Under the pieces are notes generated by a model. That model was not told the DNA's origin. It worked only from the letters and a program-made list of their open reading frames with translations, and did not search any database. This document shows, piece after piece, positions 13,755-35,160 of a stretch of DNA of 64,000 nucleotides. A program made the translations under genes and the position numbers. The stretch's first letter is position 1. Each line of letters starts with the position of its first letter. Source of the stretch: Pseudozobellia thermophila (GTDB lineage Bacteria > Bacteroidota > Bacteroidia > Flavobacteriales > Flavobacteriaceae); the NCBI RefSeq assembly GCF_900141855.1, contig NZ_FQYU01000001.1, positions 779,402 through 843,401 on the forward strand, read 5' to 3'.

Positions 13755-13814
13755 TCTAAAACAGAAATACAACAACAAAATTTAAAATCAATTAACTCAT
13801 AAAACCAAACGAAA

Positions 13815-16271
13815 ATGAAACATTTAGCTGTAATGATGCTGTTCTTTGTAGGCTGTATAGCCCTGAACGCACAAGAAGTCACGGTTACCGGAAAGGTCAC
13901 CGATGAGGAGGGCATAGGTTTATCGGGTGCCACCGTATATGCCATTGAACTCGGGGTGGGAACCACTGCCGATATGGATGGTAACTACGAACTTTCACTG
14001 CCTACGGGAAAGGTCTTGCTCGAGGCTTCGTACGTCGGTTTTTCGGCTTCCTCAAAAAATGTGGAGGTCTCCGGGGCCACCACGATAGATTTTGTACTGT
14101 CCCCTGCTAGTTTTCTCGACGAGGTAGTAGTATATTCCGGATCAAAGAAGGCCGAAAAATTGACCAGTTCCATCGCCACCGTCATCACCATCGGAGCCCG
14201 TGAAATAGACCGTTATGCAGGTAATCCTGCAGAGCTGTTGGCCCGCAAAAAAGGGGTCGATTACTTTAGGGCGGGTATTGCCGCACCGGCCTTTAATATT
14301 CGAGGCTTTAATTCCAATTTCAACTCCAAAAACCTTCAGGTGGTAGACAATCGTTTTTCGTCCTTGATCGCTACGGGGCTTCCCATGGGGCCTTTGACCA
14401 CCACGATCAAGGAAGATACGGAGCAGGTAGAACTCATCTTGGGCCCGAATGCCACACTTTACGGTCCCAATGCCCATAACGGACTCATCAATACCATTAC
14501 CAAAGACCCTCGTAAACACGAAGGGCTGACGGTTGCCGGCAACCTTGGGGTTACCGGGGATGGTGACGCCTATTATTCGGGAAGGTTGCGATTTGCCAAA
14601 AAGTTTAACGATAAATGGGCCTTCAAGGCCACCGGTGAATACACCAAGGCCAAGGAATTCCACTATGCCGATTCGGTTTACATCGACCGTAAGTTGGCCG
14701 ATGGAAGTCCGGGAATGGACGGTGTTAAAGAGGCCTATGAAGAATTTGAACTCGACAACAACGTCGAATTCTTTAAGACCGAGGCAAGTGCCTATTTTAC
14801 CCCAAAGGCGGGTACCGACCTTATCGCTACCTACGGCCATAGCAACAGTACCTACCTTTCACCTACCAATGTGGGTAGAAACCAGATTATAGATTGGCGC
14901 ATCAATGTCTTTCAACTGCGGTTCAACACCAAGAACTTCTTTGCACAGACCTATTTTACCACGAGTAAGACCGATGATACCTATTCCATAGACGACCGTA
15001 CAAAGCAATATTATGTGGGTATCGATTCAGGATTGAGTCCCGAGGAAGCTGCAGGTGAATTTTCCTATCTCAGTGGAGCCCGCTTTAAGGACGATTCAAA
15101 ACGATGGAACGCGGAAGTGCAATACAGCAATACCCTGTTCGAAAACCTGGAACTGATTACAGGTATCCAATACCAAAAGGATATGGCCAATAGTTTGGGC
15201 ACCTATCTTTTAGACGAGAACGAAGACGACACCATCGATGTGGCACAGCTTGGCGGCTACCTGCACCTGAATTATGATTTTGGTAGCGGATTCAAGGCGC
15301 TTGCCGCCGCACGGGTGGACAACCACGATATTTACGGCACCAATTTTATTCCCAAACTCGGACTTTCAAAAGAGATGGAAAAAGGAAGCTTTAGGCTTAC
15401 CTACGGGCAGGGGATCGCCGCACCTACCATTCTGAACATGTACGGAAACCTTTTTGGGGGACTTATTCTGGGTAACGCCGAGGGCTTTACCTTGGCCGAT
15501 GGCTCCAAGGTAGATCCCCAGGACGTAGAAAAGGTAAGCACCTATGAAATTGGTTACCGCGGTGCCCTTGCAGATAAACTGTATACCGATATCAATGCAT
15601 ACTACAATGTAAACAAAGACTTTTTGAGTCCCGTTACCGTCGTGGGCGTTACCACCCATCGTGGCGATACCCAGATAGAAGAGGTACAGGCCGCCTATGG
15701 GGTGTATAACGGATTGGTGGCTACCTACATCAATTTTGGGGAAGTGAATACCTACGGGGCCGACCTTAGCCTTACCTATTCCTTTTCCCCGGAATGGAGC
15801 ATGACGGCCAATTATTCCTATTTCGATTATTCCTTTGACGAGGACAATATGGAAAACGACTTTAATAACGATGGTGAGGTCAACTTCCTCGATTTCTTGG
15901 TCAATGCTCCGAAAAACAAGGGCGGACTCGGTATCAACTATTACGGTTCGCGCTTCTTCGGTTCCGTTTTCGGAAGGGCCGTACAGAAGTACAATTACTT
16001 CTCCAGTTTCCAGATCGCTTCCGAGACCCTTCCGGGGATGACCTACAGAGGGGTTCCCATTGTTGAGGATGCACCTAGTGGAGATGCCTATAACTACGGC
16101 CCCTTGGGCGGCTTTGTTACCATGGACCTGAATATCGGGTACAAGGTAAGCGACAAGGTTACCGTTTCCTTGGCAGCCACCAACCTGTTCAACAACGAGC
16201 TGCGCGAGTTTACCGCTGCACCTCCCACACGCGGACTCTATGTTCTGGAAACAAAAATTCATTTGGATTAA
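13815..16271 (+). CDS. TonB-dependent outer membrane receptor (no SusD partner)
   Basis: The 818-residue protein has a signal peptide (about 1-19), a carboxypeptidase-regulatory-like domain (20-110), a plug domain (ELLARKKGVDYFR, AFNIRGFNSNF, VELILGPNATLYG) and a 22-strand-type barrel. It is of the FecA/siderophore-receptor type rather than SusC and has no SusD neighbour. One barrel loop contains an EF-hand or dockerin-like stretch, DFNNDGEVNFLDFL. The last residues (TKIHLD) lack the usual terminal aromatic residue. Likely role: energised uptake of the ligand used by the surrounding genes. Confidence 0.92.
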   Translation: MKHLAVMMLFFVGCIALNAQEVTVTGKVTDEEGIGLSGATVYAIELGVGTTADMDGNYELSLPTGKVLLEASYVGFSASSKNVEVSGATTIDFVLSPASFLDEVVVYSGSKKAEKLTSSIATVITIGAREIDRYAGNPAELLARKKGVDYFRAGIAAPAFNIRGFNSNFNSKNLQVVDNRFSSLIATGLPMGPLTTTIKEDTEQVELILGPNATLYGPNAHNGLINTITKDPRKHEGLTVAGNLGVTGDGDAYYSGRLRFAKKFNDKWAFKATGEYTKAKEFHYADSVYIDRKLADGSPGMDGVKEAYEEFELDNNVEFFKTEASAYFTPKAGTDLIATYGHSNSTYLSPTNVGRNQIIDWRINVFQLRFNTKNFFAQTYFTTSKTDDTYSIDDRTKQYYVGIDSGLSPEEAAGEFSYLSGARFKDDSKRWNAEVQYSNTLFENLELITGIQYQKDMANSLGTYLLDENEDDTIDVAQLGGYLHLNYDFGSGFKALAAARVDNHDIYGTNFIPKLGLSKEMEKGSFRLTYGQGIAAPTILNMYGNLFGGLILGNAEGFTLADGSKVDPQDVEKVSTYEIGYRGALADKLYTDINAYYNVNKDFLSPVTVVGVTTHRGDTQIEEVQAAYGVYNGLVATYINFGEVNTYGADLSLTYSFSPEWSMTANYSYFDYSFDEDNMENDFNNDGEVNFLDFLVNAPKNKGGLGINYYGSRFFGSVFGRAVQKYNYFSSFQIASETLPGMTYRGVPIVEDAPSGDAYNYGPLGGFVTMDLNIGYKVSDKVTVSLAATNLFNNELREFTAAPPTRGLYVLETKIHLD

Positions 16272-16291
16272 GCCCCTTACAAATAATATTT

Positions 16292-17278
16292 ATGAAGAAC
16301 GCAAAGATCATTGCCTCGGGGATGTACGTTCCCGATCAAATACTCCCCAATGCCTATTTTAACGAGTTGTTGGGCGAGGATGTGGATACCTGGTTACGAG
16401 AAAACGTACAGATTTACGAACGTAGATGGTGCAAAGAGAACGAGTCTACGGCCGACCTATGCCACGGTGCCGCTTCGGAAGCCCTGCAGAATGCGGGACT
16501 GAAAGCAACGGAAATAGACCTTATTATCGTAGCCACCGATACCCCGGAATACATTTCACCGTCAACGGCCGCAGTATTGCAACACCGTTTGGGGGCCAAA
16601 AACGCAGGTACTTTTGACCTAAATGCCGCCTGTGCAGGTTTTGTGACGGCCACCGAAACGGCCACCCACTACATCCGCAGCGGATCGGTAAACAACGTAC
16701 TGGTCGTAGGCGCCTATGCCATGAGCAAATATTTAAACAAGACGGACAAGAAGACCGTAACCCTATTTGCCGATGGCGCCGGGGCCGTGGTACTCACGGC
16801 CACCGACGAGAAGAACAAGGGGCACCAAACCGGAAAGCTCATCTCGCAAGGGCAGTATACCGATTGGATGGGCATTTACGGTGGAGGCACCAAAAACCCC
16901 ATCTCGGACAAGGTATTGCAACAAAAGGACCACAAACTGAAGTTCGTGAAGAAATTTCCGCCCGAACTGAATCCCAATATGTGGAGCGGCCTGGCCAAAG
17001 AGCTTGCCGGCAACATGAATATCGACATAGGGGAAGTAGCTCAATTTTTTATTACCCAAATCAATATCAATGCCATTAAGGAAACCCTTCGTATCTTGGA
17101 TGTGGACCAGAACAAGGCCCATACCGTGATGCACCATTATGGCTATACGGGTTCGGCCTGTATACCGATGGCCTTTCACGAGGCATGGGAACAGCGAAAA
17201 GTAAAAGAGGGCGACACCCTGTTTTTTATCGGATCAGGAGGAGGACTGGCCTTTGCGGCAAATGCATTTATACTATAA
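16292..17278 (+). CDS. KAS III (FabH)-like thiolase-fold protein with degenerate active site
   Basis: The 328-residue protein follows KAS III over its length, with the nucleophile Cys114 in LNAACAGF and the glycine-rich end FIGSGGGLAFAAN. The other two FabH catalytic residues are replaced: where FabH has PHQAN the protein has TQIN (Thr255 for His), and where FabH has GNTS it has GYTG (Tyr285 for Asn). The 30-residue spacing between these sites equals that of E. coli FabH (244 and 274), so the alignment is firm. Decarboxylative condensation is therefore unlikely; acyl transfer or another thioester reaction fits better. It lies 20 bases after the TonB receptor gene and 8 before the ligase. Confidence 0.85.
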   Translation: MKNAKIIASGMYVPDQILPNAYFNELLGEDVDTWLRENVQIYERRWCKENESTADLCHGAASEALQNAGLKATEIDLIIVATDTPEYISPSTAAVLQHRLGAKNAGTFDLNAACAGFVTATETATHYIRSGSVNNVLVVGAYAMSKYLNKTDKKTVTLFADGAGAVVLTATDEKNKGHQTGKLISQGQYTDWMGIYGGGTKNPISDKVLQQKDHKLKFVKKFPPELNPNMWSGLAKELAGNMNIDIGEVAQFFITQININAIKETLRILDVDQNKAHTVMHHYGYTGSACIPMAFHEAWEQRKVKEGDTLFFIGSGGGLAFAANAFIL

Positions 17279-17286
17279 GAATACCC

Positions 17287-18780
17287 ATGTTCAATACGTT
17301 TGATTGGTTTAACAAGTGGGCGGACTACCACCCCAATAAAACGGCGGTCAAAGACCCCGTTTCGGGTAGGAGCCTCACGTATAAAGAAATAGATACGGCG
17401 GCGAATGCCTTGGCACAACACCTACGGGAACGTTACCAAATGGCCATGGGCGACCGGGTGGCGATTATTGCCGAAAACCACCTGGCCCAAGTGATTCTTT
17501 TTGCCGTCGCCCAAAAGACGGGCATCATCTTGGTGCCCATAAATTTTAGATTGGCATCCAAGGAAATGGAGGCGCTGCTGACCGACTCGCAGTGCAAATT
17601 GGCCTATACCGATGGTTGTGTCGACCTTAAAGACCTTACGACCAAGACCGAATTCGCAGACCTGGCATCGGTGTATAATTTTACGGAGAAAGAGGCGCCT
17701 TTGGCCTTCGAGCCGCAACTCACCGAAGACGCGCCCCTATTTATACTGTACACTAGTGGCACTACGGGCCTTCCCAAAGGGATTCTCTATACCCATAAAA
17801 TGCTTTTTTGGAACAGTATAAACACCACCCAGAGCCTATTGATCAATAACGACACCGTTACGCTCAACTGCATGCCGCTGTTCCATACCGGCGGTTGGAA
17901 CGTACTTTTAACGCCCGTGCTGCATCGTGGCGGTACGGTAATCATGTTCAAAAAGTTTGATGCCCTTGCCGTGCTCAACTGTATTGTAGAGGAACGGCTA
18001 GACCTGTTCATGGCCGTGCCCACCATGCTAAAAATGATGGCCGAACTACCGGAATTTACAAGGGCCGACATAAGCTGCCTGCACTATATTGTGGTAGGCG
18101 GGGAAAGTATGCCACTGAACCTTATCGAAACCTTCCACCGTAAAAACGTACCTATCAGACAGGGTTACGGACTTACGGAAGCCGGCCCCAACCTGACCTC
18201 TTTGCACCAAGACGATGCCCATAGAAAGCAGGGCTCTATCGGTAAGCCCAATTTTTATGTGGATGTAAAAATTTTAGGGGAAGACGGAAACGAAGCCCCT
18301 ACCGACACCCCCGGTGAAATATTGATCGGTGGCCCTATGGTCATGCCCGGATATTGGAAGAATCCTGAAACCACCAAGGCGGCAAAAATGGGCCATTGGC
18401 TGCGCACCGGCGACATTGGAAGAATGGATGATGAGGGCTTTATCTATATTATGGACCGCAAAAAGAACATGTACATCAGTGGTGGTGAAAACGTATACCC
18501 TGCCGAAGTGGAACGGGCCTTGCTACAGCACCCGAACATACGGGAAGCCGTTGTCATCGCCGGGCCGCACAAAAAGTGGGGCGAATGCGGCGTGGCCTTT
18601 CTGGTAGCGGAGCCCCAGCCCGACAAAGAGGAGCTTAAAAGCTTTTGCAAAACGCATTTGGCCAAGTTTAAGATTCCCTCGGAATTCTATTTTGTGAAAA
18701 ACATCCCCAAGAACGAAACGGGCAAACTGGACCGAAAAAGGGTCAAGTCCGACTTCCTAAAACAACAGCTTACCCCATAG
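17287..18780 (+). CDS. AMP-dependent acyl-CoA synthetase/ligase
   Basis: The 497-residue protein has the class I adenylate-forming motifs: ILYTSGTTGLPKG, YGLTEAG, HWLRTGDIGRMDDEG, and the C-terminal NETGKLDRK with the catalytic Lys. It activates a carboxylic acid to acyl-AMP and then the CoA thioester in the cytosol. I use the ATG at 17287, 8 bases after the KAS III-like gene; the frame is open further upstream but that part only overlaps the previous gene. It is the last gene of the unit, followed by a strong terminator. Whether the substrate is a fatty or an aromatic acid is not visible. Confidence 0.92.
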   Translation: MFNTFDWFNKWADYHPNKTAVKDPVSGRSLTYKEIDTAANALAQHLRERYQMAMGDRVAIIAENHLAQVILFAVAQKTGIILVPINFRLASKEMEALLTDSQCKLAYTDGCVDLKDLTTKTEFADLASVYNFTEKEAPLAFEPQLTEDAPLFILYTSGTTGLPKGILYTHKMLFWNSINTTQSLLINNDTVTLNCMPLFHTGGWNVLLTPVLHRGGTVIMFKKFDALAVLNCIVEERLDLFMAVPTMLKMMAELPEFTRADISCLHYIVVGGESMPLNLIETFHRKNVPIRQGYGLTEAGPNLTSLHQDDAHRKQGSIGKPNFYVDVKILGEDGNEAPTDTPGEILIGGPMVMPGYWKNPETTKAAKMGHWLRTGDIGRMDDEGFIYIMDRKKNMYISGGENVYPAEVERALLQHPNIREAVVIAGPHKKWGECGVAFLVAEPQPDKEELKSFCKTHLAKFKIPSEFYFVKNIPKNETGKLDRKRVKSDFLKQQLTP

Positions 18781-19658: not shown

Positions 19659-20687
19659 TCAATTGGTGCCTAGTGAAGAATCCCTTACAATAAGATTGGT
19701 TTTTATTTCTACCGTTTTGGTAACGATTTCGTTTTTGGGGTTTTTGATTTCGTCGATCAAGAATTTTACGGCGGTGCGGCCAATTCTATCCCCTGGTTGG
19801 TCTACGGTCGTTAGGGCAGGCTGTATGATCGTTGAGTTGACCGAGTTGCTAAAACCGACTACGGCCACTTCATCGGGTATTTTAATGTTGAGTTTATGCA
19901 GGGCCTTGATGGCCCCGATGGCGGCGTTGTCGGTAATGGCAAAAATGGCATCCGGCCGTTTTTTTAGGCTGAGCAGTATGTTGGTCAAACGCCGGCCATT
20001 GGCTATGGATATATCCTCGGTACTTTGAATGATCTTTTTGCGAATGGGAAGTCCGTGATGGTTGAGGGCCCTCAAATAACCGGCGTAGCGTTTTTCCGAA
20101 TTATAGGAATTCTCGGTTTCCTTAATTATGGCAATTCTTTGCTTACCTAGTTCGATCAGGTGCTCAACGGCATTAAAGGCAGCTTCCTCTTCGTTGATTA
20201 CTATTTGAGTGCAGGGCACCTTGCTCGACACCTTATCGAACAAAACGATGGGTACCCTTTCCAAAACGTTTAAGACTTCATCTACCCTGGTGGTTTTTCT
20301 GGCCAAAGACATTAAAATACCGTCTACCCCGAACTGGTTCATGGTCCGCAGCATCTCTATTTGCTTGGTCTCACTGTTCTTTGATTCCGATATGATTACC
20401 CGATAGCCCCTAAGCTCCGCTTCCTCTAGAATGCCCTTTAAGATGGTCGAGGTAAACATATGGGAGATATTGGGCACGATTACTCCCAACATATAGGTTT
20501 CATGCGATCGAAAGCCCCTGGCGAACAAGTTGGGGGCATAGTGCAATTGCTTGGCCAACTTCTGTACGCGTTCCTTGGTTTCGATACTGATATCGGGGTG
20601 GTCGTTCAACGCACGCGAGACGGTTGAAATCGATAGGTTCAGTTCTTGGGCGAGTTCTTTTAGGGTGATGTTTCTCTTTTTGCTCAC
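19659..20687 (-). CDS. LacI-family transcriptional regulator of the glycosylglycerate locus
   Basis: A protein of about 342 residues with the N-terminal LacI helix-turn-helix (ITLKELAQELNLSISTVS), hinge helix and a periplasmic-binding-type sensor domain. The best start is the GTG at 20687; a TTG two codons earlier is also in frame and a stop precedes it. It is divergent from the TonB receptor gene, with a LacI-type palindrome between them, so it probably represses both the receptor operon and itself until the pathway sugar is bound. Confidence 0.9.
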   Translation of the reverse strand: MSKKRNITLKELAQELNLSISTVSRALNDHPDISIETKERVQKLAKQLHYAPNLFARGFRSHETYMLGVIVPNISHMFTSTILKGILEEAELRGYRVIISESKNSETKQIEMLRTMNQFGVDGILMSLARKTTRVDEVLNVLERVPIVLFDKVSSKVPCTQIVINEEEAAFNAVEHLIELGKQRIAIIKETENSYNSEKRYAGYLRALNHHGLPIRKKIIQSTEDISIANGRRLTNILLSLKKRPDAIFAITDNAAIGAIKALHKLNIKIPDEVAVVGFSNSVNSTIIQPALTTVDQPGDRIGRTAVKFLIDEIKNPKNEIVTKTVEIKTNLIVRDSSLGTN

Positions 20688-20706
20688 ATTCAATCAATTA
20701 TAAAAT

Positions 20707-20714
20707 CAAAAATA
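20707..20714 (-). promoter_or_regulatory. -7 element of the lacI promoter
   Basis: On the minus strand it reads TATTTTTG, a match to TAnnTTTG, 19 bases before the GTG start. The operator palindrome begins 8 bases further upstream, between the -33 and -7 positions, which fits autoregulation. Confidence 0.5.
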
Positions 20715-20722
20715 ATCTTTTT

Positions 20723-20748
20723 GCAAACGTTTGCGGTAACGTTTGCAT
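20723..20748. promoter_or_regulatory. LacI operator: perfect palindrome plus second imperfect copy
   Basis: GCAAACGTTTGC at 20723-20734 is a perfect 12-base palindrome with the central CG typical of LacI sites. A second copy, TAACGTTTGCA at 20738-20748, keeps the right half. Centre-to-centre spacing is about 14 bases. The pair lies between the divergent lacI and TonB receptor genes. Confidence 0.8.
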
Positions 20749-20856
20749 ACGAAATGCGCAAAAATTTTGTCATATGGTTATGGTATTCGAATAATTTCAC
20801 CCCTCAATTTATTGTTTAATGAATTTTTAACTCAACTCACTACAAATTTTAACATT

Positions 20857-23532
20857 ATGAAAAAAATTATTTTTGCGGTAATGGGGCTATTGACCGCAAT
20901 TCATTCCTTTGCCCAGACCGATATCAGCGGTAGCGTTACCGACAGCGCTGGCGAACCGATTCCCGGAGCGAATATTTTTATCGTGGGAAGTACTTCGGGT
21001 ACCACCTCCGATTTTGATGGAAATTTTACATTTACTACCGATCTTATGGGTAGCCAAGTACTTAGGGCTTCTTACCTCGGTTTTACCACTGTAGAGCAAA
21101 CGATCGACCTTAACGGTAGTCCGTTGACCGTTGAATTTGTCATGCAGGAAGGCGGGCAGCAGTTAGATGAGGTTGTTCTTACCGCTTCGAGTACCTTTCG
21201 TTCACAGAAACAGGCGCCCCTTTCGATAAGCTCCGTTAAAATGAAGGAAATAACCAAATTGTCGGCCAATAGCCAAGCCGATATTTTAAGAAGCGTACCG
21301 GGCATTACCGCGGAAGGTGGTGGAGGTGAAACGGCAAGTAATATATTCGTAAGGGGACTTCCCTCTGGGGGGCAATACGTTTTTAACCCCTTGCAATACG
21401 ATGGTATGCCCTTGATCAGTTCTTTCGGACTCAACTCTTCGGCCCACGATGTCTATGCCAGGCCCGATATCGGTTTCAAGGGTGTGGAATTCGTTCGTGG
21501 GGGTGCAGCTGTACTGTACGGTGCCGGATCTGTGGCCGGAATCATCAACTATACCAGTAAAACCGGGGATACCAACCCCGGTAATGTCATTAACCTAGAG
21601 GTGGCCGACCAAGGAAGGATAAAAACCGATTTCTATAGCGGAGGCCAACTGGGTGGTGAAGACTCGAACACCTACTATGCGTTTACAGGTTTTGTTCGAC
21701 ATGATCGCGGGCCCATCGATGTCGGTCTGCCTACCAAGGGTGTACAGTTTCGCGGCAATATTAAAAAGAAATTTGATAAGGGGTCGTTTACGATCCATGG
21801 CCAGTTTATAAATGACAATGCCCAATTCTATCTGCCCATACCCCTTTCGGGAGGAAGCCGCGAACGGATCAATGGCAACGATGGCGAGCCGGTAGAGCAA
21901 TTACTTACCGGAGCATTGGCCAATACCTCCTTTAATACCCCGGGGGGAATGTATCAGAGTCCCATTGCAGACGGGGTATCGACTACGGGAGGTTACCTCT
22001 TGGGCGATTTCAACTATCGCTTCAACGACGACCTTAAACTACAATCAAAAATAAGGTACGCCAACTACAAACATAACTTCGCGCTCTACGTGGCAGGAAA
22101 CGGAAACAACGGTAACCCGATTAGCCTTGACAACTATGTAGAGAGTATCGCTCCGGCCAACCAAGGGTATACGGCCACATATCAAAGTGGGTCCGGAGCC
22201 CAGATCAACGGTTCCGATTTGGTAATCGACAACCTACATGTAGATCGCTTGCGACCCATGACCGACTATTCTGGTGAAATCAATCTTACAAAAACGATCA
22301 ACACCTCCAACGGTGGAAGCCATAACATTACCCTGGGTTCATTTATAGCGCGAAGTGAGGCCGAAGACGTAAACTATCAGTATCGGGTATTGACCGAGTT
22401 CAACAACAACCCTCAATTGGTGAACTTGAGTTATGTCGATGCCGACGGCAACAATGTTATCTATTCGCAGGGAGGCCTTTACGACCGTATTGGCCAGACC
22501 TCAAACAACTTCTTGTCGCAAAACAGGGTCGCCCTGTATCTGACCGATGAGATCATTGCCGATAAATGGCGCTTTGACGTAGGCTTTCGTTGGGAACATA
22601 CCGATGGCGAAAATAGCCGCGGCGGCATCTATTCCGAAACCGTTTATACCGATGCCGATATCACCGCCGAACTAAGTGATGTACAATCGGCCGACGGTAC
22701 TTTTTTAAGAACAAAGGTAAGTGCCGATGCTTGGGCCCTTTCCTTGGCGGGTCTTTATGAACTGACAGAGACCACGAATTTGTACGCCAACTTTTCAAAA
22801 GGCTATTTCTTTCCGCAACTTAGAGGTTTTACCCCCGTTCCCGGTATTGATGAAAGTAAGTACGACCCTGAAAATATAATCCAGTTCGAAGCGGGGGCAA
22901 AATTTGGAAACGAGAGGTTTTCGGGGTCAATTGCGGGGTATTACGTGGGGCTGACCGACAGGGTTTCCATTCGTCAGGCCATTGTTGGCGGCCAACTGAT
23001 CGATGAGACCAGGGCAGAGCAAAACACACGGACCATAGGTTTGGAGGCAACGTGGGATTACACCCTTGTCGAAAACCTAAACCTACGGGGTACCGCCACC
23101 TATCAAGCCCATGAAATAACCAAAAATACCAATTTTGACCTGGTGAACGGTACATCTACCGAAGCCAACGTGGGCAATGAGCTGGCAAGACAGCCCAACT
23201 TTTTGGGAGGCCTGGGCCTTTACTACGATAATTCTGTAATCGATGCCAACTTCGGTGTCAACCATACCGGTAAAAAATTTACCGACGACACCAATAATAT
23301 TGAGCTCGATGCGATAAATATTGGACGCTTGGGAGCTGGGTACACTTTTGGGGAACTCGAAAACAACCAGTCGCTACGCCTTGGTTTCTCGGTTTTCAAT
23401 CTTTTCGATAGCTCGGGTATTACAGAAGGTAATCCGAGAGCGGGCGTTGCCGGGCAGAGCGAATCGGAATTCTTTGTCGGTCGGCCGATCCTGCCCAGAA
23501 GGTTCTTCTTGACCGCTACCTTTAATTTTTAA
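20857..23532 (+). CDS. TonB-dependent receptor, probable glycosylglycerate uptake
   Basis: An 891-residue protein from the ATG at 20857; the frame opens further upstream, but that part lies inside the operator. It has a signal peptide (KKIIFAVMGLLTAIHSFAQ), a regulatory-like domain (ITGSVTD-type, residues about 20-105), a plug and a barrel ending in an aromatic residue (FFLTATFNF), as expected. There is no SusD partner, so the ligand is probably a small molecule. It is followed by a strong terminator and then by the hydrolase, symporter and kinase genes. The substrate is inferred from those genes. Confidence 0.93.
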   Translation: MKKIIFAVMGLLTAIHSFAQTDISGSVTDSAGEPIPGANIFIVGSTSGTTSDFDGNFTFTTDLMGSQVLRASYLGFTTVEQTIDLNGSPLTVEFVMQEGGQQLDEVVLTASSTFRSQKQAPLSISSVKMKEITKLSANSQADILRSVPGITAEGGGGETASNIFVRGLPSGGQYVFNPLQYDGMPLISSFGLNSSAHDVYARPDIGFKGVEFVRGGAAVLYGAGSVAGIINYTSKTGDTNPGNVINLEVADQGRIKTDFYSGGQLGGEDSNTYYAFTGFVRHDRGPIDVGLPTKGVQFRGNIKKKFDKGSFTIHGQFINDNAQFYLPIPLSGGSRERINGNDGEPVEQLLTGALANTSFNTPGGMYQSPIADGVSTTGGYLLGDFNYRFNDDLKLQSKIRYANYKHNFALYVAGNGNNGNPISLDNYVESIAPANQGYTATYQSGSGAQINGSDLVIDNLHVDRLRPMTDYSGEINLTKTINTSNGGSHNITLGSFIARSEAEDVNYQYRVLTEFNNNPQLVNLSYVDADGNNVIYSQGGLYDRIGQTSNNFLSQNRVALYLTDEIIADKWRFDVGFRWEHTDGENSRGGIYSETVYTDADITAELSDVQSADGTFLRTKVSADAWALSLAGLYELTETTNLYANFSKGYFFPQLRGFTPVPGIDESKYDPENIIQFEAGAKFGNERFSGSIAGYYVGLTDRVSIRQAIVGGQLIDETRAEQNTRTIGLEATWDYTLVENLNLRGTATYQAHEITKNTNFDLVNGTSTEANVGNELARQPNFLGGLGLYYDNSVIDANFGVNHTGKKFTDDTNNIELDAINIGRLGAGYTFGELENNQSLRLGFSVFNLFDSSGITEGNPRAGVAGQSESEFFVGRPILPRRFFLTATFNF

Positions 23533-23563
23533 GACAAATAGAGTTAGAAAGTTAGTTTACTCA

Positions 23564-23604
23564 AAAAAGACATTGGCGAATCAAAGGGCCGCCAATGTCT
23601 TTTT
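23564..23604 (+). terminator. Intra-operon terminator between receptor and hydrolase
   Basis: AAAAAGACATTGGCG (23564-23578) and CGCCAATGTCTTTTT (23590-23604) are perfect 15-base complements around an 11-base loop, ending in T. The hairpin covers an ATG at 23595, so the hydrolase must start at 23619. It may let the receptor be made in excess over the enzymes. Confidence 0.9.
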
Positions 23605-23618
23605 ACCAAATAAAAATT

Positions 23619-24929
23619 ATGATCGAAAATTTGACACAGCGTGCCAAGGAAGTTTTGAATGGCAATTTTCAGGCCGAAGGCTTTACCATTCCCAGTAAAG
23701 GTTTGTATCCGTTTCAATGGAAATGGGACTCGGGCTTTATCGCGATAGGTTTTGCCCATTACGATATGGAAAAGGCCAAAGCGGAAATCGGAACCTTGCT
23801 AAAGGCCCAATGGGACAACGGATTTATACCGCACATTGTTTTTCATACCGAGAATGACTCCTATTTTCCGGGGGCTGATTTCCATCAGTCGAATTTACAC
23901 CCGCAGTCTTCTAAAAAATATAGGTCTACCGGTATGACCCAACCCCCGGTAACGGGCTTTGTGCTTCAAGAAATGTACCGGATCGCGGATGATAAGCAAG
24001 ACCTGCTAAGGTTTATCGAAGAACATATCGATAAGGTCTACCAGAATCACGCTTACTTCTATACCCATAGAGACCCGAACAACGAAGGCTTGATGTACAT
24101 ATATCACAATTGGGAGTCGGGAACGGACAACTCGCCCGTTTGGGACGCTATTTGGGAAACCATGAACCCTCCGCATTACGACGTAAAACGAAAGGATACT
24201 ACCCACGTAGATGTTTCCCAAAGGCCTTCCAACAGGGAATACGACCACTATCTTTACCTTATAGATATTGCCAAGGAACATCGATATGACGATGCCAAGA
24301 TAGCCGAGTTGTCACCCTTCTTGGTACAAGACCCTTTGTTCAATGCCATGCTGATCAAATCGAACGAGGCCTTGATCGAACTGTATGGGCTTATCGGAAA
24401 CAATACCGAAAAAATAAGGCAGCTCAAACAATGGCAGGAAAAAAGCATACGGGGCTGTAACGAAAAACTTTTTGATGAAGCCTTAGGGGCCTATGTACAC
24501 TATGATCTTAGAAATGACCGTCCGATCCGGCATGTTACTTCGTCTTCATTCTCTCCCCTGTTCGCTAAAATACCCGATCAAGACCGAGCGGCTATTTTGG
24601 TGAAAACCATGCTCGAAAGGTTTGGCGGCGACGATAAATATTTATGTGCTTCCTTCGACCCGACGGATGAACGGTTTGATCCGCGAAAGTATTGGAGGGG
24701 CCCCGTTTGGATCAATATGAATTGGATGCTGTACTACGGACTCAAAAATTACGGTTTTTTAAAGATCGCCGAGCGTATGAGGAAGGATTCTATAGAATTG
24801 ATCGAACGCGACGGTTTTTATGAGTATTTTGATTGTCGAAAAGACAATGGTGAGCCGAATCGAAGGGGATACGGCGGTAGTAATTTTTCATGGAGCGCCG
24901 CCTTGTTGATCGATCTTTTGAAGAATTGA
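23619..24929 (+). CDS. MGH1-type (GH63-clade) glycoside hydrolase, probable mannosyl-/glucosylglycerate hydrolase
   Basis: The 436-residue protein without signal peptide is the size of the cytosolic mannosylglycerate and glucosylglycerate hydrolases. Visible family motifs are WKWDSGF at residues 34-40, NWESGTDNSPVWD with Asp170 (candidate general acid), YWRGPVWINMNW at 358-369, and GEPNRRGYGGSNFSWSAA with Glu412 (candidate base). These enzymes release D-glycerate and a hexose. The presence of a glycerate kinase two genes downstream strongly supports this reading over trehalase or processing glucosidase. Mannosyl versus glucosyl specificity cannot be decided here. Confidence 0.82.
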   Translation: MIENLTQRAKEVLNGNFQAEGFTIPSKGLYPFQWKWDSGFIAIGFAHYDMEKAKAEIGTLLKAQWDNGFIPHIVFHTENDSYFPGADFHQSNLHPQSSKKYRSTGMTQPPVTGFVLQEMYRIADDKQDLLRFIEEHIDKVYQNHAYFYTHRDPNNEGLMYIYHNWESGTDNSPVWDAIWETMNPPHYDVKRKDTTHVDVSQRPSNREYDHYLYLIDIAKEHRYDDAKIAELSPFLVQDPLFNAMLIKSNEALIELYGLIGNNTEKIRQLKQWQEKSIRGCNEKLFDEALGAYVHYDLRNDRPIRHVTSSSFSPLFAKIPDQDRAAILVKTMLERFGGDDKYLCASFDPTDERFDPRKYWRGPVWINMNWMLYYGLKNYGFLKIAERMRKDSIELIERDGFYEYFDCRKDNGEPNRRGYGGSNFSWSAALLIDLLKN

Positions 24930-25019
24930 TTTGGGTGTAGATACCTGTAAAAATCCTAGTCTGTATTTTCCCGATTGAAATTGGAAGGGGGGCTCTCGTA
25001 TAAAAAACAAGCTTGTTGT

Positions 25020-26624
25020 ATGAACTATTTAGATTATATCGTAATTGTCGTTTATTTGGCCGGGTTTCTGGGCTTGGGCTTCCTGTTCAAGGAAAACAAC
25101 TCGGGGGGCGACTATTTTTTGGGAGGACGCAAAACCTCATGGCTGCCTTTGAGCCTGTCGGCCATGGCGACCCAACTTTCGGCCATAAGCTTTATTTCCG
25201 CACCCGCCTTCGTAGGCCTTAAGGACGGTGGCGGTATGCAATGGCTCACCTATGAGTTTGGGGTGCCCCTGGCCATGGCTTTTTTATTGATCGCCCTCTT
25301 GCCCACCCTTTATAAGTCGGGGATCGTTAGCGTTTATGAATACCTTGAGAAACGCTTTGATGCCTCTTCGCGCTTGTTGATCAGTTTTGTCTTTCAGATA
25401 AGCCGTTCAGTGGCGACGGGGGTTATGGTCTATACAATGGCCTTGATCTTACAGGCTACCATTCAATTGGATTTTTGGATTTCCATTCTGATCATCGGCC
25501 TTATTACCATGGTCTACTCTTTTCAGGGCGGCATGAAAGCAGTGATATGGGGCGATGTAATACAAATGGGCATTCTCTTTTTGGGCATAGTTATCTGCCT
25601 TTACTACGGTTTTGGCGAACTCGGTGGAATAGATAATTTCCTTACCCATGTAGACCAAGATCGTATTACAGCTGTAGATTTTGGTAAATGGGGCTTTAAT
25701 AATGCCGACGGAAACGACGAATTCGGATTTTGGCCCATGGTCATCGGTGGTTTTTTTCTTTATGCCTCCTATTATGGAACGGATCAAACACAGTCGCAAA
25801 GACTGCTGTCTTCAAGTAGCATGTCGAACCTGAAGAAACTGATGATGGCAAACGGACTCCTTCGTTTTCCCTTTACGTTAACCTATTGTATCATGGGGCT
25901 TGTACTGGGCACACTGTTACTACAGGATGTAAGCTTTCAAGAACAAATGGAAACGGTCTACCAGGCCAATATCGGTTCCTTGCAAGGAAAGAAAGCGGAT
26001 CTAATGGTGCCCGTATTTATTATCAAGTACCTGCCAAACGGGGTAATCGGAATATTGATCGTGGCCATTATGTCGGCCGCCATGTCGACCTTGAGCTCAA
26101 CGGTAAACTCCCTTTCCGCGGTAACTATGGAAGATTTCGTAAAACGTTTCAATCCGGGTATGTCCGATAAAAAATATATGGGCTATTCTAGATTGTTGTC
26201 TATTTTTTGGGGACTTGTTTGTCTGTTCTTTGCCTTTTTTGCGGGCAATATCGAGGGTACCGTAATTGAGGTGATCAATAAGATCAGTTCGGTTTTTTAC
26301 GGACCGATTTTGGCAGCCTTTATCTTGGCCATTTTAACTAAAAGGACACACGCACTGGGGGCCAACATAGGTATTGTTGTAGGCGTATTGTTCAATATTT
26401 ACCTCTGGCTCTACGTTCCGCAGATTTTTTGGTTCTGGTGGAACGCCTTGGGCTGTCTGGTCACCATTCTGGTGGCACTTGCGGTAAGTTTTACAATCAA
26501 GCGAAAGGCCAACGAAGGCCTTGAGGTAGTCTATTATGCAGGTAAGAAGGAAGTGGCGATTTTGGCCGCTTATTTTATTGCAATTGTCTTGTTCAGTATA
26601 TCTTTACCTAACATCCTTAATTGA
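25020..26624 (+). CDS. Sodium:solute symporter (SSS/SGLT type)
   Basis: A 534-residue inner membrane protein with about 14 helices, using the ATG at 25020; an upstream TTG in frame is rejected. SSS hallmarks include GGDYFLGGRKTSWLPLSLSA, GDVIQMGILFLG and MSAAMSTLSSTVNSLSAV. It probably carries the intact glycosylglycerate from periplasm to cytosol, because the hydrolase has no signal peptide. The stop lies 8 bases before the glycerate kinase start. Confidence 0.9.
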   Translation: MNYLDYIVIVVYLAGFLGLGFLFKENNSGGDYFLGGRKTSWLPLSLSAMATQLSAISFISAPAFVGLKDGGGMQWLTYEFGVPLAMAFLLIALLPTLYKSGIVSVYEYLEKRFDASSRLLISFVFQISRSVATGVMVYTMALILQATIQLDFWISILIIGLITMVYSFQGGMKAVIWGDVIQMGILFLGIVICLYYGFGELGGIDNFLTHVDQDRITAVDFGKWGFNNADGNDEFGFWPMVIGGFFLYASYYGTDQTQSQRLLSSSSMSNLKKLMMANGLLRFPFTLTYCIMGLVLGTLLLQDVSFQEQMETVYQANIGSLQGKKADLMVPVFIIKYLPNGVIGILIVAIMSAAMSTLSSTVNSLSAVTMEDFVKRFNPGMSDKKYMGYSRLLSIFWGLVCLFFAFFAGNIEGTVIEVINKISSVFYGPILAAFILAILTKRTHALGANIGIVVGVLFNIYLWLYVPQIFWFWWNALGCLVTILVALAVSFTIKRKANEGLEVVYYAGKKEVAILAAYFIAIVLFSISLPNILN

Positions 26625-26632
26625 TCAAATCT

Positions 26633-27763
26633 ATGAAATTCGTAATCGCTCCCGATAAATTTAAGGGCTCGTTGACCGGTTTTGAATTCTGCAATGCGGT
26701 CGAGGAAGGACTTCGTATGGTCTTTCCTGATGCGGAAATAGTAAAAATGCCCTTGGCCGATGGCGGTGACGGTACCATGGAGGTCATTAAGCACTACCTC
26801 AAGGGAGAAACGGTGGCGGTAAACGTACACGACCCCTTGTTCCGAACCATCGAGGCCCCTTACCTATATGCCGGGGAAAATGGAGTGGCCTATATAGAGA
26901 TGGCCGAGGCATCGGGACTTAAATTACTGAAGGACGATGAAAGAAATTGTATGCAATCGACTAGTCTGGGAACAGGGGAGCTTATGGCGCATGCCCTGGA
27001 TAGGGGTGCTAAAAGCATTATTTTGGGTATCGGTGGCAGTGCCACCAACGACGGGGGCATGGGCGTGGCCTCGGCATTGGGATATCGGTTTCTCGATGAC
27101 AAGGGTGCCGAATTGAAACCGATAGGCCGTAGCCTGTCGGCTATTAAAGGCATAGATGCCTCAAAGGTACATTCCAAGCTTCGGGAGGTTGAGGTAAAAG
27201 TGGCCTGTGATGTAAACAATCCGCTTTACGGCAAGGAAGGGGCCGCCCATGTTTTTGCCGCCCAAAAAGGGGCTACCGATAAGGAAATAGAACAGTTAGA
27301 CGCGGGCCTGCGCAACTATGCGGAAGTCGTATTGGGGCAATACGGCATCGATCTGCAAAACATAAAGGGAGCCGGTGCCGCCGGAGGAATCGGAGGGGGT
27401 GCCATGGCCTTTTTAAACGGACAATTGACGTCGGGGATCGAATTGATCAAGGAACTGGCACATTTTGATCGGGCCATCGAAGGGAGCGATTGGGTCATAA
27501 CCGGGGAGGGCCGCTTGGATGCACAGACCCTTACCGGAAAAACGATCCAAGGCGTAGTGGTGTCGGCCCAAAGGAAAAATATACCGGTAGCGGCCCTTTG
27601 TGGTTCGCTTGAAATTACGGTAGAACAGCAAGAGGCCCTAGGGCTAGACTACGTAACGGCCATCGTACAGGGTATTACAACACTACAAGAGGCCATGGAA
27701 TCCAGTTATTCGAATTTGGTCAAGTCTACCTATAACTTTGCAAAAGTTTTGGGCGCCCCATGA
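26633..27763 (+). CDS. Glycerate kinase (GarK/GlxK type)
   Basis: A 376-residue class I glycerate kinase: it begins MKFVIAPDKFKGS, then PLADGGDGTME, GGSATNDGGMG, AGAAGGIGGGAMAF and ITGEGRLDAQTLTGK, all typical of the family. Members of this class phosphorylate D-glycerate at the 2-position and feed 2-phosphoglycerate into glycolysis. It is the last gene of the LacI-controlled unit and makes sense of the upstream hydrolase. The start at 26633 is preferred over an in-frame TTG at 26621. Confidence 0.94.
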   Translation: MKFVIAPDKFKGSLTGFEFCNAVEEGLRMVFPDAEIVKMPLADGGDGTMEVIKHYLKGETVAVNVHDPLFRTIEAPYLYAGENGVAYIEMAEASGLKLLKDDERNCMQSTSLGTGELMAHALDRGAKSIILGIGGSATNDGGMGVASALGYRFLDDKGAELKPIGRSLSAIKGIDASKVHSKLREVEVKVACDVNNPLYGKEGAAHVFAAQKGATDKEIEQLDAGLRNYAEVVLGQYGIDLQNIKGAGAAGGIGGGAMAFLNGQLTSGIELIKELAHFDRAIEGSDWVITGEGRLDAQTLTGKTIQGVVVSAQRKNIPVAALCGSLEITVEQQEALGLDYVTAIVQGITTLQEAMESSYSNLVKSTYNFAKVLGAP

Positions 27764-27812: not shown

Positions 27813-29630
27813 TTACTCCTTTTTCAGCTGCTCGATCAATTTTGGGGAAACTTTAAGTACCGTTCCGTGTCGGGTTCCTTCGGGAAAAACGATTTGGTCT
27901 GAAATATCTTCCCAGTTTTCTAGGTCTTTTGAACGAACGGCCCCGTATTTATGGTCCCTATATTTGTCAAAGTAGACTACCCACTCGTCGTTGATCTTGA
28001 TAGCGGTCGGCCCTTCGGCCCAATAGTCTCCCGTAATGGGCTCGCTTGCGGCCGTGTAGGGGCCCTTTAACCTATCGGCGTAGGCAATCTTAATGTTTTT
28101 CTGGGGAGGGTCGGGGGTCTCGTCCTTTAAGAACATGATGTACTTGTCGTCCAATTTTTGAATGGAGGCATCTATTACGTTGAATCCGGGATCGTACAAC
28201 AATTCGGTAGGCGTAAAGGTTTCAAAGTCTTTGGTCGTAGTGGCGTACATACGGTGGTTGTAGCCATTCTCCTTTTTTGATTTGGTTTCCGGAAAACGGC
28301 CTTTGATGGTGCTGGCCCAATAGATCATATAGCTTCCGTTTTCGGGGTCGTAGGTAATCTCGGGTGCCCACGTATTCTTGGTGTCCGGTTCATGGGCCAT
28401 TACGGGAATGAATTTTTGTTCCGACCAATGGATCAGGTCTTTCGAACGCGCATAGCCAATGCCCTTGTCCGTCCAGCTTACCGTCCATACCATATGAAAA
28501 TTCCCGTCCCTGCCCTTGATGATACAGGGGTCGCGCATGAGGGAATCCTTGCCTACCCTTGGGGTTAAGAACGATTGGTCGTTTTTTAAGGATTGCCACT
28601 TATAACCGTCTTCACTGTAAGCAAAATGAAGTCCGTCTTCACCGTTCCCTTTAAAGTACGAGAAGAGATAAACGTCTTTGTTCGGCAACCAATCGTTGGC
28701 CCTTAGCCAGTTTTCACAATCGGTGGGCCAATGTTTGTTGGTGCCAAAGACACCGAGGCCCATACCGTGTTTTCCTTTTTCGTACAAATGCATTTCGGCG
28801 GGCACTTTGTTTTCCTTTAGGGCCAAGTAGTAGCGTATACTGTTTTCGACCGGTACGGCCTGGTCTTCGGTAGTGTGAACAAGAAATGCCGGCGGGGTGT
28901 GCTGGTCTACCTGCTTTTCGTTGGAAAATTTTGATAGGTCGGAAGGGCTGGGGCTTTCGCCCAAAAGCTTGGTTCTGGATCCCATGTGGGTAATGCCTTC
29001 TTCCATAGAGATGACCGGATAGATCAGGATCGAGAAATCGGGTCGGGCACTGGTTCCGTCCTTTACCTCATAGACCTTGTCGTTATAGTGGGTAGAAAGG
29101 GTAGCGGCCAGATGACCGCCTGCCGAAAAGCCCATAATGCCCACTTTGTTCGGGTCGATATTCCATTGGGCGGCATTTCTGCGTACCGTTCGCAAGGCTT
29201 CCTGGGCATCTTGCAAGGGTCCGACGGACTTGTTTTTCATGGTGCCGTCATAGGGCATCCTATACTTGAGTACCAGGGCCGATATTCCTAGGGAATTGAA
29301 CCATTTGGCCACTTTATACCCTTCTTTGTTGATGGCCAAATGCGAATAGCCCCCACCTGGGCAGATGACCACGGCAGTGCCCGTAGCAATTTTTTCATCC
29401 GCCTGAAAAAGGATGAGCTCGGGATCCGATACCTTGCTGTAGCCCCGTACGGTGCCCGTTGGGTCGTATTGAACCTGCTCTTTGTACGAGGCATCGTTAA
29501 GGGCGTCGGGCGCACCGTTTGGCCAAAGGGGCAGGGTCTTTTCTTGTGGGTAGACGAATTGGATTGTTGTTAACAGTAAGGCTAAGGTTCCCAGGAATGG
29601 GGCACGTCCCATTTTTTTCATTTGTATCAT
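27813..29630 (-). CDS. Esterase-GH43 fusion protein, exported
   Basis: A protein of about 605 residues with a signal peptide (PFLGTLALLLTTIQFVYPQ). The first half is an alpha/beta hydrolase of the acetyl-xylan-esterase-like type: ICPGGGYSHLAI, nucleophile motif GFSAGGHLAA, TTEDQAVPVEN with the Asp, and KHGMG with the His. The second half is a five-bladed GH43-type domain: MRDPCII (base Asp), WAPEITYD, and AEGPTAIK (acid Glu). Both active sites look complete. It would remove acyl groups and clip side chains, probably arabinose or galactose, from pectin-type glycans. I take the ATG at 29630; a TTG further upstream also fits the frame. Confidence 0.85.
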   Translation of the reverse strand: MIQMKKMGRAPFLGTLALLLTTIQFVYPQEKTLPLWPNGAPDALNDASYKEQVQYDPTGTVRGYSKVSDPELILFQADEKIATGTAVVICPGGGYSHLAINKEGYKVAKWFNSLGISALVLKYRMPYDGTMKNKSVGPLQDAQEALRTVRRNAAQWNIDPNKVGIMGFSAGGHLAATLSTHYNDKVYEVKDGTSARPDFSILIYPVISMEEGITHMGSRTKLLGESPSPSDLSKFSNEKQVDQHTPPAFLVHTTEDQAVPVENSIRYYLALKENKVPAEMHLYEKGKHGMGLGVFGTNKHWPTDCENWLRANDWLPNKDVYLFSYFKGNGEDGLHFAYSEDGYKWQSLKNDQSFLTPRVGKDSLMRDPCIIKGRDGNFHMVWTVSWTDKGIGYARSKDLIHWSEQKFIPVMAHEPDTKNTWAPEITYDPENGSYMIYWASTIKGRFPETKSKKENGYNHRMYATTTKDFETFTPTELLYDPGFNVIDASIQKLDDKYIMFLKDETPDPPQKNIKIAYADRLKGPYTAASEPITGDYWAEGPTAIKINDEWVVYFDKYRDHKYGAVRSKDLENWEDISDQIVFPEGTRHGTVLKVSPKLIEQLKKE

Positions 29631-29805
29631 TGTTTTGTTCGGTACACTTGCTTGGGTCAAAAAAGCATTCTAAGGCCCTGCTTTATGGATTTTTGGAAAT
29701 AGGACGACCTTAACGACCCCTTTTTCGCGGGATTGAAGATAGCTAAAAATCCGAATCCGTAAAAACCATTCCCGGATCAGGGACATGTATTGACGACTAT
29801 TGCGA

Positions 29806-31083
29806 TCAAATTGCGGTACCCGGTCCGATTTTGCTTTTTGGGGTTACCGATAAAGAGGAGGGAAGCTCAAAGACCTCCAGTCCGAAATAGGGCAATGCGG
29901 CCAAGAGATGGTCAAAGATATCGGCCATGATGTATTCGTAGTTTTCCCATCTCTTGTCTGAACTAAAGGCATAGACTTCCAAGGGAATGCCCTGGGATGT
30001 AGGAGCCAATTGACGGACCATTAAGGTCATGCCCTTGTTGATGACCGAAAGGTTTTGCAGGTAATCGTTTACGTACTTTCTGAATATGCCGATATTGGTA
30101 AGGTTTCTGCCGTTGACGGGCAAGGCTTTGTCTATGCCGTTCGAGGTGTTGTAAGACCGTATTTGGTCGGTTCGCGTGACAAGGTATTGTTCTATCAACT
30201 GTACCTTTTTGAGGTTCTCTACATCGTCATCGCTTAAAAAACGGACGCTTTTTTGGCTAATGACCAATGCGCGTTTTATACGTCGCCCTCCCGACTCTTG
30301 CATGTTGCGCCAGTTCTTAAAGGAATCCGAAATCAAAGAGTAAGTGGGTATGGTGGTCACCGTCATGTCAAAGTTGCGCACTTTTACCGTGGCAAGGGTA
30401 ATTTCGATAACATCGCCATCGGCCCCGTATTTTTCAAAAGTGATCCAATCGCCGATACGCACCATATCGTTGATACTCACCTGTATGCTGGCGACCAGGC
30501 CAAGGATGGAATCCTTGAATATCAACAGGATTATTGCCGAACCTGCGCCCAAGGCCGTAAAGAACTTCCAGATCTGAACATCGGTAATTATGGCAACGAT
30601 GGTCAACGAACCAATGAACCAGGCAAAGATCATGAATACCTGTATGTAGCTATCCATGGGTTTGTCGCGAAACCTCGGCTTGGTCTTCAGGTAGTCGTTC
30701 GTACTTCTAAAAACGCTCTTGACCACAATAAGGGTCAAGATGACGAAGGATATGCGCAGTATTTTAAAGGCGATGTTGCCGGCGTACTCAAAATCGACGA
30801 AGGCAAAGGGCAGCAACTCGTACAATAGGCCTAAGGGCAGAATGTGGGCAACATATCGGGGTACTTTGTTGGCCACCAAAAAATTGTCGTAGTTGGTTTT
30901 CGATTTTCGGGCCAATCGGACGGATATGGAACGCAGGACTTTCCAGACCAATATGTCTAGAAACCAAGCCAAAATCAGTCCTCCGATCAATACAATCGCT
31001 AGGTTGAGGTATGCGGCCACGTCTTCGCTCAAACCTATTTCCAACAGGTATTTGTAGAGTAAACGAGATAGTCCGGGTTTCAT
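29806..31083 (-). CDS. MscS-family mechanosensitive channel
   Basis: A 425-residue inner membrane protein with several N-terminal helices, a pore-lining segment (FTALGAGSAIILLIFKDSILG) and the MscS beta domain (GDWITFEKYGADGDVIEITLATVKVRNFD). A long cytosolic C-terminal part makes it resemble the YbdG/mini-conductance type. It releases solutes on osmotic downshock. It lies after a terminator and is probably independent of the glycan genes around it. Confidence 0.9.
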   Translation of the reverse strand: MKPGLSRLLYKYLLEIGLSEDVAAYLNLAIVLIGGLILAWFLDILVWKVLRSISVRLARKSKTNYDNFLVANKVPRYVAHILPLGLLYELLPFAFVDFEYAGNIAFKILRISFVILTLIVVKSVFRSTNDYLKTKPRFRDKPMDSYIQVFMIFAWFIGSLTIVAIITDVQIWKFFTALGAGSAIILLIFKDSILGLVASIQVSINDMVRIGDWITFEKYGADGDVIEITLATVKVRNFDMTVTTIPTYSLISDSFKNWRNMQESGGRRIKRALVISQKSVRFLSDDDVENLKKVQLIEQYLVTRTDQIRSYNTSNGIDKALPVNGRNLTNIGIFRKYVNDYLQNLSVINKGMTLMVRQLAPTSQGIPLEVYAFSSDKRWENYEYIMADIFDHLLAALPYFGLEVFELPSSLSVTPKSKIGPGTAI

Positions 31084-31176
31084 TTTTTGAATCGTTTTGA
31101 ACGAAAGAAAGCAAAATTACATCTTGCAAGGTAATTTTGGGACAATAACCGAAGTTATAACAAAAAATTATAGAAA

Positions 31177-31204
31177 AGGCAAGGTGCGGAAAAGCACCTT
31201 GCCT
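31177..31204 (-). terminator. Terminator after the GH106-GH105 operon
   Basis: AGGCAAGGTGC and GCACCTTGCCT are perfect 11-base complements with a 6-base loop. On the minus strand a T-rich stretch follows. It lies 37 bases beyond the GH105 stop. Confidence 0.85.
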
Positions 31205-31241
31205 ATACATACCTACGCCGAAGGGGTATTGACTGCCGAGT

Positions 31242-32360: not shown

Positions 32361-32371
32361 AGGGTCGAGTT

Positions 32372-35137: not shown

Positions 35138-35160
35138 AGTGTTGTTCGGTCGATCGGGAC

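Follow-up and report, generated by a model that had tools for sequence, protein, structure and literature searches.

A predicted locus for mannosylglycerate (digeneaside) catabolism in Pseudozobellia thermophila

Within the 64,000 nucleotides of Pseudozobellia thermophila DNA analyzed here (the window) there is a divergent arrangement of intact genes, with a LacI gene on the reverse strand set against a TonB receptor, an MGH1-type hydrolase, an SSS symporter and a glycerate kinase that follow in that order on the forward strand. The features are as follows.

19659 to 20693, reverse strand: LacI-family repressor (PF00356, PF13377), divergent from the operon
20722 to 20747, no strand assigned: candidate paired, overlapping LacI-type operators TGCAAACGTTTGCG / CGGTAACGTTTGCA, 12 bp apart, a motif recurrent in relatives
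20857 to 23532, forward strand: TonB-dependent outer-membrane receptor without a SusD partner (PF13715, PF07715, PF00593)
23595 to 24929, forward strand, start at 23595 or 23619: predicted GH63-clade mannosylglycerate hydrolase (MGH1-like), cytoplasmic (PF22422)
25020 (probable start) to 26624, forward strand: SSS-family sodium:solute symporter (PF00474; TIGR00813 over its cut-off)
26633 (probable start) to 27763, forward strand: GarK-type glycerate kinase (PF02595; TIGR00045 over its cut-off)

The profile matches bear out the gene set named in the original prediction, that is LacI, TonB receptor, MGH1-type hydrolase, SSS symporter and GarK-type kinase. The interval then given, 20687 to 27763, contains the operator region but leaves out the LacI gene itself.

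The reading frame of the receptor is open from 20743 to 23532, with a preferred start at ATG 20857, and the N terminus encoded from there, MKKIIFAVMGLLTAIHSFAQ, resembles a signal peptide when judged by eye. The protein scores 100 bits on the SusC/RagA model, where the cut-off is 368, and it is therefore not a canonical SusC. There is no SusD gene beside the receptor, which is flanked by the LacI and hydrolase genes, and the sole SusC/SusD-like pair found in the window lies about 24 kb away at 51299 to 56736. The two marks of a SusC/SusD polysaccharide utilization locus, a receptor above the cut-off and an adjacent SusD, are thus both missing here, in agreement with the earlier description of the locus as SusD-less. 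The symporter matches PF00474 with 148 bits and TIGR00813 with 247 bits, over cut-off, an assignment at the level of the family only, and it is presumed to be the inner-membrane importer of the intact solute. We know of no characterized mannosylglycerate transporter, at either membrane, outside the phosphotransferase system (PTS) of E. coli.

The hydrolase covers profile positions 1-356 of the 356 in PF22422 with a score of 317 bits (cut-off 27), and by eye its N terminus carries no signal, as had been claimed. It matches the Protein Data Bank entries 2z07/4wva-c with E 1.6e-91. The predicted model (pLDDT 93) superimposes on the Thermus mannosylglycerate hydrolase 4wva with Z 58.4 and rmsd 1.3 over 412 residues, sharing the (alpha/alpha)6 fold and the same cap regions, while comparison with the mycobacterial glucosylglycerate hydrolase gives a lower Z of about 52. 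Taking the residue roles of the latter enzyme as the basis of comparison (PMC6608630), the catalytic and substrate-contacting residues are identical at 17 of 17 positions (residues 38-410 of the window protein), and all those contacting glycerate are kept (Tyr36, Trp40, Tyr88, Arg216 and Tyr375 in mycobacterial numbering). By profile, residues and fold this is a protein of the full-length, 440-450 aa PF22422 type, the mannosylglycerate/glucosylglycerate hydrolase clade of GH63. Other PF22422 matches in the genome are partial and lie inside proteins of 721-1193 aa, and we have rejected them as paralogues of the hydrolase. On NF047898, the glucosylglycerate hydrolase equivalog of NCBIfam, the protein scores 333.6 bits under a curated cut-off of 550; we have not adopted that name as the substrate, since the score falls well short of this cut-off and the residue at 434 differs.

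The kinase scores 465 bits on PF02595 and 446 bits on TIGR00045, over cut-off, and matches the Protein Data Bank entry 3cwc. It is of the GarK type (class II) and is the sole PF02595 protein of this genome; on both the glycerate 2-kinase and the 3-kinase equivalog models of E. coli it scores 336-351, under their cut-offs, and these scores do not separate 2-phosphoglycerate from 3-phosphoglycerate as its product. The kinase family is present in all 56 flavobacterial genomes that have a full-length hydrolase, compared with 125 of the 341 that lack one (Fisher p = 3e-22, a nominal value, since species are not independent and linkage itself contributes to the association).

Most of the 80 orthologous loci compared show the same order of genes, and on this comparison of sequences the arrangement is not due to chance. 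Linked to the hydrolase we find the symporter in 78 of these loci, the kinase in 74, and the receptor and LacI in 63 each; linkage of the kinase in relatives was one of the points on which the original prediction had asked to be judged. Seventeen of the 80 have no recognizable receptor, a few of them at contig ends, so that it is not an obligatory part. A full-length hydrolase gene is present in 56 of 397 sampled Flavobacteriaceae genomes, about one in seven, and Zobellia species carry the same locus (L017, L018, L021, L024 and L031). Full loci are found in Flavobacterium species, for which red algae are not an obvious source of the solute, and hydrolase-symporter-kinase sets in Bacteroidetes contigs derived from metagenome-assembled genomes (L083, L086 and L087). 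Beyond the family there are receptor-hydrolase-symporter units with other regulators, AraC in L150 and ECF sigma/FecR in L152. The same hydrolase clade is accompanied by two discrete classes each of receptor, symporter and kinase, and by at least three types of regulator. We put at an even chance the proposal that Bacteroidota have more than once built up, around this one hydrolase, a complete route from outer membrane to glycolysis whose TonB receptor and SSS symporter are devoted to an anionic glycosylglycerate.

Other genes lie near these loci. A GNAT acetyltransferase is a recurrent extra part, murQ is divergent from many second-clade loci, and genes resembling TonB receptors are convergent to some of them.

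The operator pair between the LacI and receptor genes is conserved and provides candidate LacI sites. A LacI orthologue stands at the equivalent position in 63 of 80 loci. Of 64 LacI-downstream intergenic regions, 52 contain CAAACGTTTG, where shuffling predicts 0.05, and adjacent pairs of AACGTT are spaced by exactly 12 bp in 43 of 44 cases. The sequence GCAAACGTTTGC is found once in the 5.04-Mb genome, at the putative operator region here.

Enzymes of the hydrolase clade can accept both mannosylglycerate and glucosylglycerate, and the mycobacterial enzyme cleaves the two but prefers glucosylglycerate almost tenfold (PMC6608630). Where the latter enzyme contacts the sugar through Gln434, Phe is found in the window, as it is in Thermus, in all 80 flavobacterial orthologues, in all 17 of the second-clade flavobacterial orthologues read and in 24 of 24 rows of A1. 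As a marker of specificity Phe434 has an indirect basis, namely two structurally studied enzymes and genomic context. In four loci (L034, L036, L048 and L071) manA comes directly after the kinase gene with a spacing of -4 to 3 bp, and the three sequences that were scanned score over the cut-off of TIGR00218; in six more (L037, L038, L041, L042, L067 and L076) the kinase is followed at -4 to 14 bp by a cupin assigned to PF01050 from one sequence scanned. This extension by a mannose-6-phosphate isomerase gene, manA or a PMI-like cupin, is thus found in 10 of 80 loci and is absent from the window. The cupin resembles full PMI enzymes weakly. In Lutibacter there are nucleotide-sugar genes some 500-590 bp past manA, and manA could there serve partly in polysaccharide synthesis. 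Finally, L154 and L159 each have a homologue with Phe434 that is divergent from genes for mannosyl-3-phosphoglycerate synthase and phosphatase; in L154 these two score over the cut-offs of TIGR02460 and TIGR02461. Because of Phe434, the isomerase genes in 10 relatives and the distant homologue beside mannosylglycerate-synthesis genes, we favor mannosylglycerate over glucosylglycerate as the predicted substrate. The original prediction had left the sugar open; its import, cytoplasmic hydrolysis, glycerate kinase and LacI control are well supported by comparison, and mannosylglycerate is now indicated.

It is unlikely that glucosylglycerate, released by bacteria that include picocyanobacteria, is instead the main natural substrate, and that mannosylglycerate is cleaved on the side in an otherwise unchanged pathway. 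Glucosylglycerate is made by Prochlorococcus (PMC11631117), the NCBIfam match carries its name (but at 334 bits, under the cut-off of 550), and loci are present in the metagenome-derived contigs and Flavobacterium species noted above; yet every orthologue checked has Phe and not Gln434, the operon gains mannose-6-phosphate isomerase genes and not glucose genes, a homologue adjoins mannosylglycerate-synthesis genes, and the structural match is better to the Thermus mannosylglycerate enzyme. We think it very improbable that the hydrolase recycles a glycosylglycerate osmolyte of the cell's own while the transporters serve something else. Such is the role of the mycobacterial enzyme (PMC6608630), and the homologue of L154 and L159 adjoins synthesis genes, but symporter linkage is conserved, an outer-membrane receptor and a repressor are present in most loci, and a search restricted to mannosylglycerate synthase found none in this genome, on which ground we have rejected this explanation. 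A different alpha-glycoside as the substrate, for instance trehalose or a fragment of an alpha-glucan, as weaker matches to trehalase and GH63 glucosidases might suggest, is scarcely credible with the glycerate-contacting residues all conserved and a glycerate kinase linked.

The locus is probably a catabolic unit for mannosylglycerate (digeneaside). The anionic solute, which may be of algal origin, would cross the outer membrane via the TonB receptor and then, still intact, the inner membrane via the SSS symporter together with sodium. In the cytoplasm the GH63-clade enzyme would carry out inverting hydrolysis to mannose and D-glycerate, Asp178 acting as the acid and Glu410 as the base. The kinase would phosphorylate glycerate for entry into lower glycolysis, and mannose would be phosphorylated by a hexokinase outside the locus and then converted by manA, of which this genome has a single copy away from the locus; both products of the cleavage would in this way reach glycolysis. 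LacI would repress the operon at the paired operators until its ligand is present, probably the solute or a product.

The original prediction considered that no such system had been described, and this claim is not supported. A 2021 paper on Maribacter dokdonensis 62-1 reports digeneaside degradation genes in that strain and treats them as a trait already known from Zobellia galactanivorans (PMC8072126, with reference to Barbeyron et al. 2016, doi 10.1111/1462-2920.13584), and a 2018 paper counts digeneaside among the substrates predicted for flavobacterial PULs (PMC6298971). To call it a major solute of red algae was also too broad, as most orders make floridoside; digeneaside is typical of Ceramiales and is said to have at most a minor osmotic role (PMC8523428). 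With its strong comparative support, the locus is a well-supported example of the predicted digeneaside degradation already reported from the genes of related bacteria, and not a new kind of system. If this is correct, a small solute of algae, beyond polysaccharides, would enter marine flavobacteria through a dedicated TonB receptor, and mannosylglycerate would be a widely used carbon source, judging by the 56 of 397 Flavobacteriaceae genomes with the hydrolase. The hydrolase gene could then be used as a marker for mannosylglycerate turnover, and the locus would provide transporter candidates for a solute that is of interest to biotechnology.

The digeneaside degradation genes reported for Z. 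galactanivorans and M. dokdonensis 62-1 belong to the same family and have the same proposed substrate as those here. The Thermus thermophilus mannosylglycerate hydrolase (2z07, 4wva-c) is alike in fold, catalytic residues and Phe at 434, but is about 40% identical to the hydrolase of the window. The glucosylglycerate hydrolase of Mycolicibacterium hassiacum (PDB 5ohc and others) is alike in fold and in all other contact residues, but is about 33% identical, has Gln434 in place of Phe, and acts in the turnover of a solute made by the cell itself, unlike the role proposed here. Escherichia coli has MngB and MngR, and there the phosphorylated product is cut by a GH38 mannosidase. Uptake of mannosylglycerate is by MngA, as cited in PMC8490865. 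The E. coli system thus resembles the proposed one in allowing growth on imported mannosylglycerate, but it imports by the PTS, whereas the locus described here has a TonB receptor, an SSS symporter and a GH63-clade hydrolase.

All genes of the predicted locus were identified in the window (positions 779402-843401 of its contig), which belongs to a 5.04 Mb genome whose closest named relatives, judged by the hydrolase, are Maribacter, Kriegella, Arenibacter and Zobellia.

19659-20693, minus strand: LacI gene, divergent from the four genes below
Opposite LacI, in order: TonB receptor, MGH1-like hydrolase, SSS symporter, glycerate kinase

The interval originally claimed, 20687-27763, covers the four operon genes but leaves out the LacI gene. 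With preferred start codons the symporter and kinase genes are separated by 8 bp. The receptor scores far below the SusC/RagA cut-off, no SusD gene adjoins it among its neighbors, and the sole SusC/SusD-like pair found in the window lies ~24 kb from the locus. Just upstream (11336-18780) is a co-directional run including a second SSS symporter, an alpha/beta hydrolase, another SusD-less TonB receptor, a beta-ketoacyl synthase III-like protein and an acyl-CoA ligase. Positions 27813-36821, the pectin/rhamnogalacturonan side adjoining the locus, encode a fused BD-FAE-type esterase and GH43-like protein, GH88/105-type and GH106 proteins and a tandemly duplicated GDSL/SGNH esterase. Next, at 38191-49748, comes a series of genes probably for L-rhamnose and uronate catabolism (aldolase-dehydrogenase, TIM-barrel isomerase-like, FGGY kinase, FMN dehydrogenase, mannitol-dehydrogenase-like, altronate dehydratase).

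The best solved relative of the hydrolase is the Thermus mannosylglycerate hydrolase (E = 1.6e-91), with the Mycolicibacterium glucosylglycerate hydrolase at ~1e-67. The AlphaFold2 model, for which 24 homologues were used (pLDDT 93.2), superposes on the Thermus structure 4wva with Z = 58.4 (rmsd 1.3, 412 residues); for the mycobacterial enzyme Z is 52-53. In the mycobacterial enzyme Asp182 and Glu419 are catalytic and a set of further residues contacts the substrate (PMC6608630); all 17 checked positions are identical in the window hydrolase and in 80/80 orthologues. Glucosylglycerate is the main rival substrate, and the 17 positions do not separate enzymes for the two solutes. Position 434 may distinguish them. 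Where the mycobacterial enzyme has its sugar-contacting Gln434, Phe stands in the Thermus and window hydrolases (Phe431 in the latter), in all 80 orthologues, in a second flavobacterial hydrolase clade (52-58% identical) and in every row of the 24-member alignment, down to 37% identity. Chain A of mycobacterial PDB entry 6g3n also aligns Phe here, where other entries differ; this looks like a site variant.

Independent pointers from gene content favor mannosylglycerate. A class I mannose-6-phosphate isomerase gene lies 3' of the kinase (-4 to 3 bp) in L034 (Aquimarina), L036 and L048 (Lutibacter) and L071 (Spongiivirga), these handles denoting compared loci from other genomes; all three scanned (L034, L036, L071) exceed the TIGR00218 cut-off. 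Six other loci (Flavobacterium, Frigoriflavimonas, two MAGs) have a 171-aa cupin gene there (-4 to 14 bp; PF01050 in the one sequence scanned), the final gene ahead of a convergent neighbor. The window genome has a single manA, away from the locus. In L154 and L159, from one Bacteroidota genus (g277; probably Rhodothermus, from gene content), a homologue with Phe434 and 43% identity is transcribed divergently to mannosyl-3-phosphoglycerate synthase and phosphatase genes, both over their profile cut-offs in L154. Recycling of the cell's own mannosylglycerate is unlikely, since no such synthase was found in the window genome. Mannosylglycerate is the most likely substrate.

Conserved linkage was borne out among 80 orthologous loci from named species: the symporter adjoins the hydrolase in 78, and the kinase is linked in 74, the receptor in 63 and LacI in 63. 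Three of the six loci lacking the kinase end at a contig edge (L054, L074, L077). Full-length hydrolase occurs in 56/397 sampled genomes of the family, and a PF02595 kinase in 56/56 of these and in 125/341 of the remainder; the window kinase is the only one in its genome. The second clade (L122-L138) keeps hydrolase, symporter and kinase in nearly all loci and has neither LacI nor the same receptor. In one locus, a GntP-family permease gene (L133:2896-4224) takes the usual kinase place beside hydrolase and symporter, and the kinase gene is on a different contig. Receptor-hydrolase-symporter sets recur outside the family. L150 has a GNAT gene between hydrolase and symporter and an AraC gene close by; in L152, ECF sigma and FecR genes come ahead of the three. 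Such recurrence argues that outer- and inner-membrane transport functions go with the hydrolase. On comparative grounds glycosylglycerate use is strongly supported, and we infer the transport steps of receptor and symporter.

Hydrolase identity to that of the window forms one unbroken range (63-81%). Receptors fall into two separate classes (64-88% or 45-50%), as do symporters (72-95% or 50-54%) and, less sharply, kinases (52-86% or 37-46%). All-first-class (30) and all-second-class (15) sets are the most frequent and mixed sets also occur, so partners have been exchanged around a stable hydrolase.

Additional genes are inserted in related loci. A GNAT acetyltransferase gene (PF13302), absent from the window locus, separates hydrolase from symporter in at least 20/80 loci and is present nearby in 23/80 (for example L034:5329-5961 and L065:11321-11914), and recurs in another family (L150:4880-5482) where the hydrolase is only ~45% identical. 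Five Allomuricauda/Flagellimonas loci (L069, L075, L080, L084, L085) carry an S66 LD-carboxypeptidase-like gene between symporter and kinase (PF02016/PF17676; one sequence scanned, L084). The Wenyingzhuangia heitensis locus has, between hydrolase and symporter, a gene for a secreted protein of 667 aa that is GH97-like by eye (L061:11290-13293).

Between the LacI and receptor genes lies TGCAAACGTTTGCGGTAACGTTTGCA (20722-20747). The motif CAAACGTTTG is present in 52 of 64 LacI-to-downstream-gene intergenic regions, against 0.05 expected (dinucleotide-block shuffle), and adjacent AACGTT pairs are spaced by exactly 12 bp in 43/44 cases. GCAAACGTTTGC occurs once in the whole window genome, at the LacI-receptor gap, and in the receptor-less loci L015, L028 and L066 the same site precedes the hydrolase gene. 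The simplest reading is that LacI would be a local repressor dedicated to the operon.

Digeneaside had been taken as a major solute of red algae; this is too broad, as it is typical of Ceramiales (PMC8523428). Among the papers searched, which did not include Barbeyron et al. 2016, none describes the receptor and symporter. The claim of a new kind of system was not supported: PMC8072126 reports digeneaside-degradation genes as known for Zobellia galactanivorans (citing Barbeyron et al. 2016) and also for Maribacter dokdonensis, and PMC6298971 names digeneaside as a predicted PUL substrate. E. coli grows on mannosylglycerate via the MngA PTS (PMC8490865), and Marine Group II archaea have a glycoside hydrolase possibly acting on it (PMC6336850). 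In general terms the idea was thus already known, and the novelty of the locus is modest.
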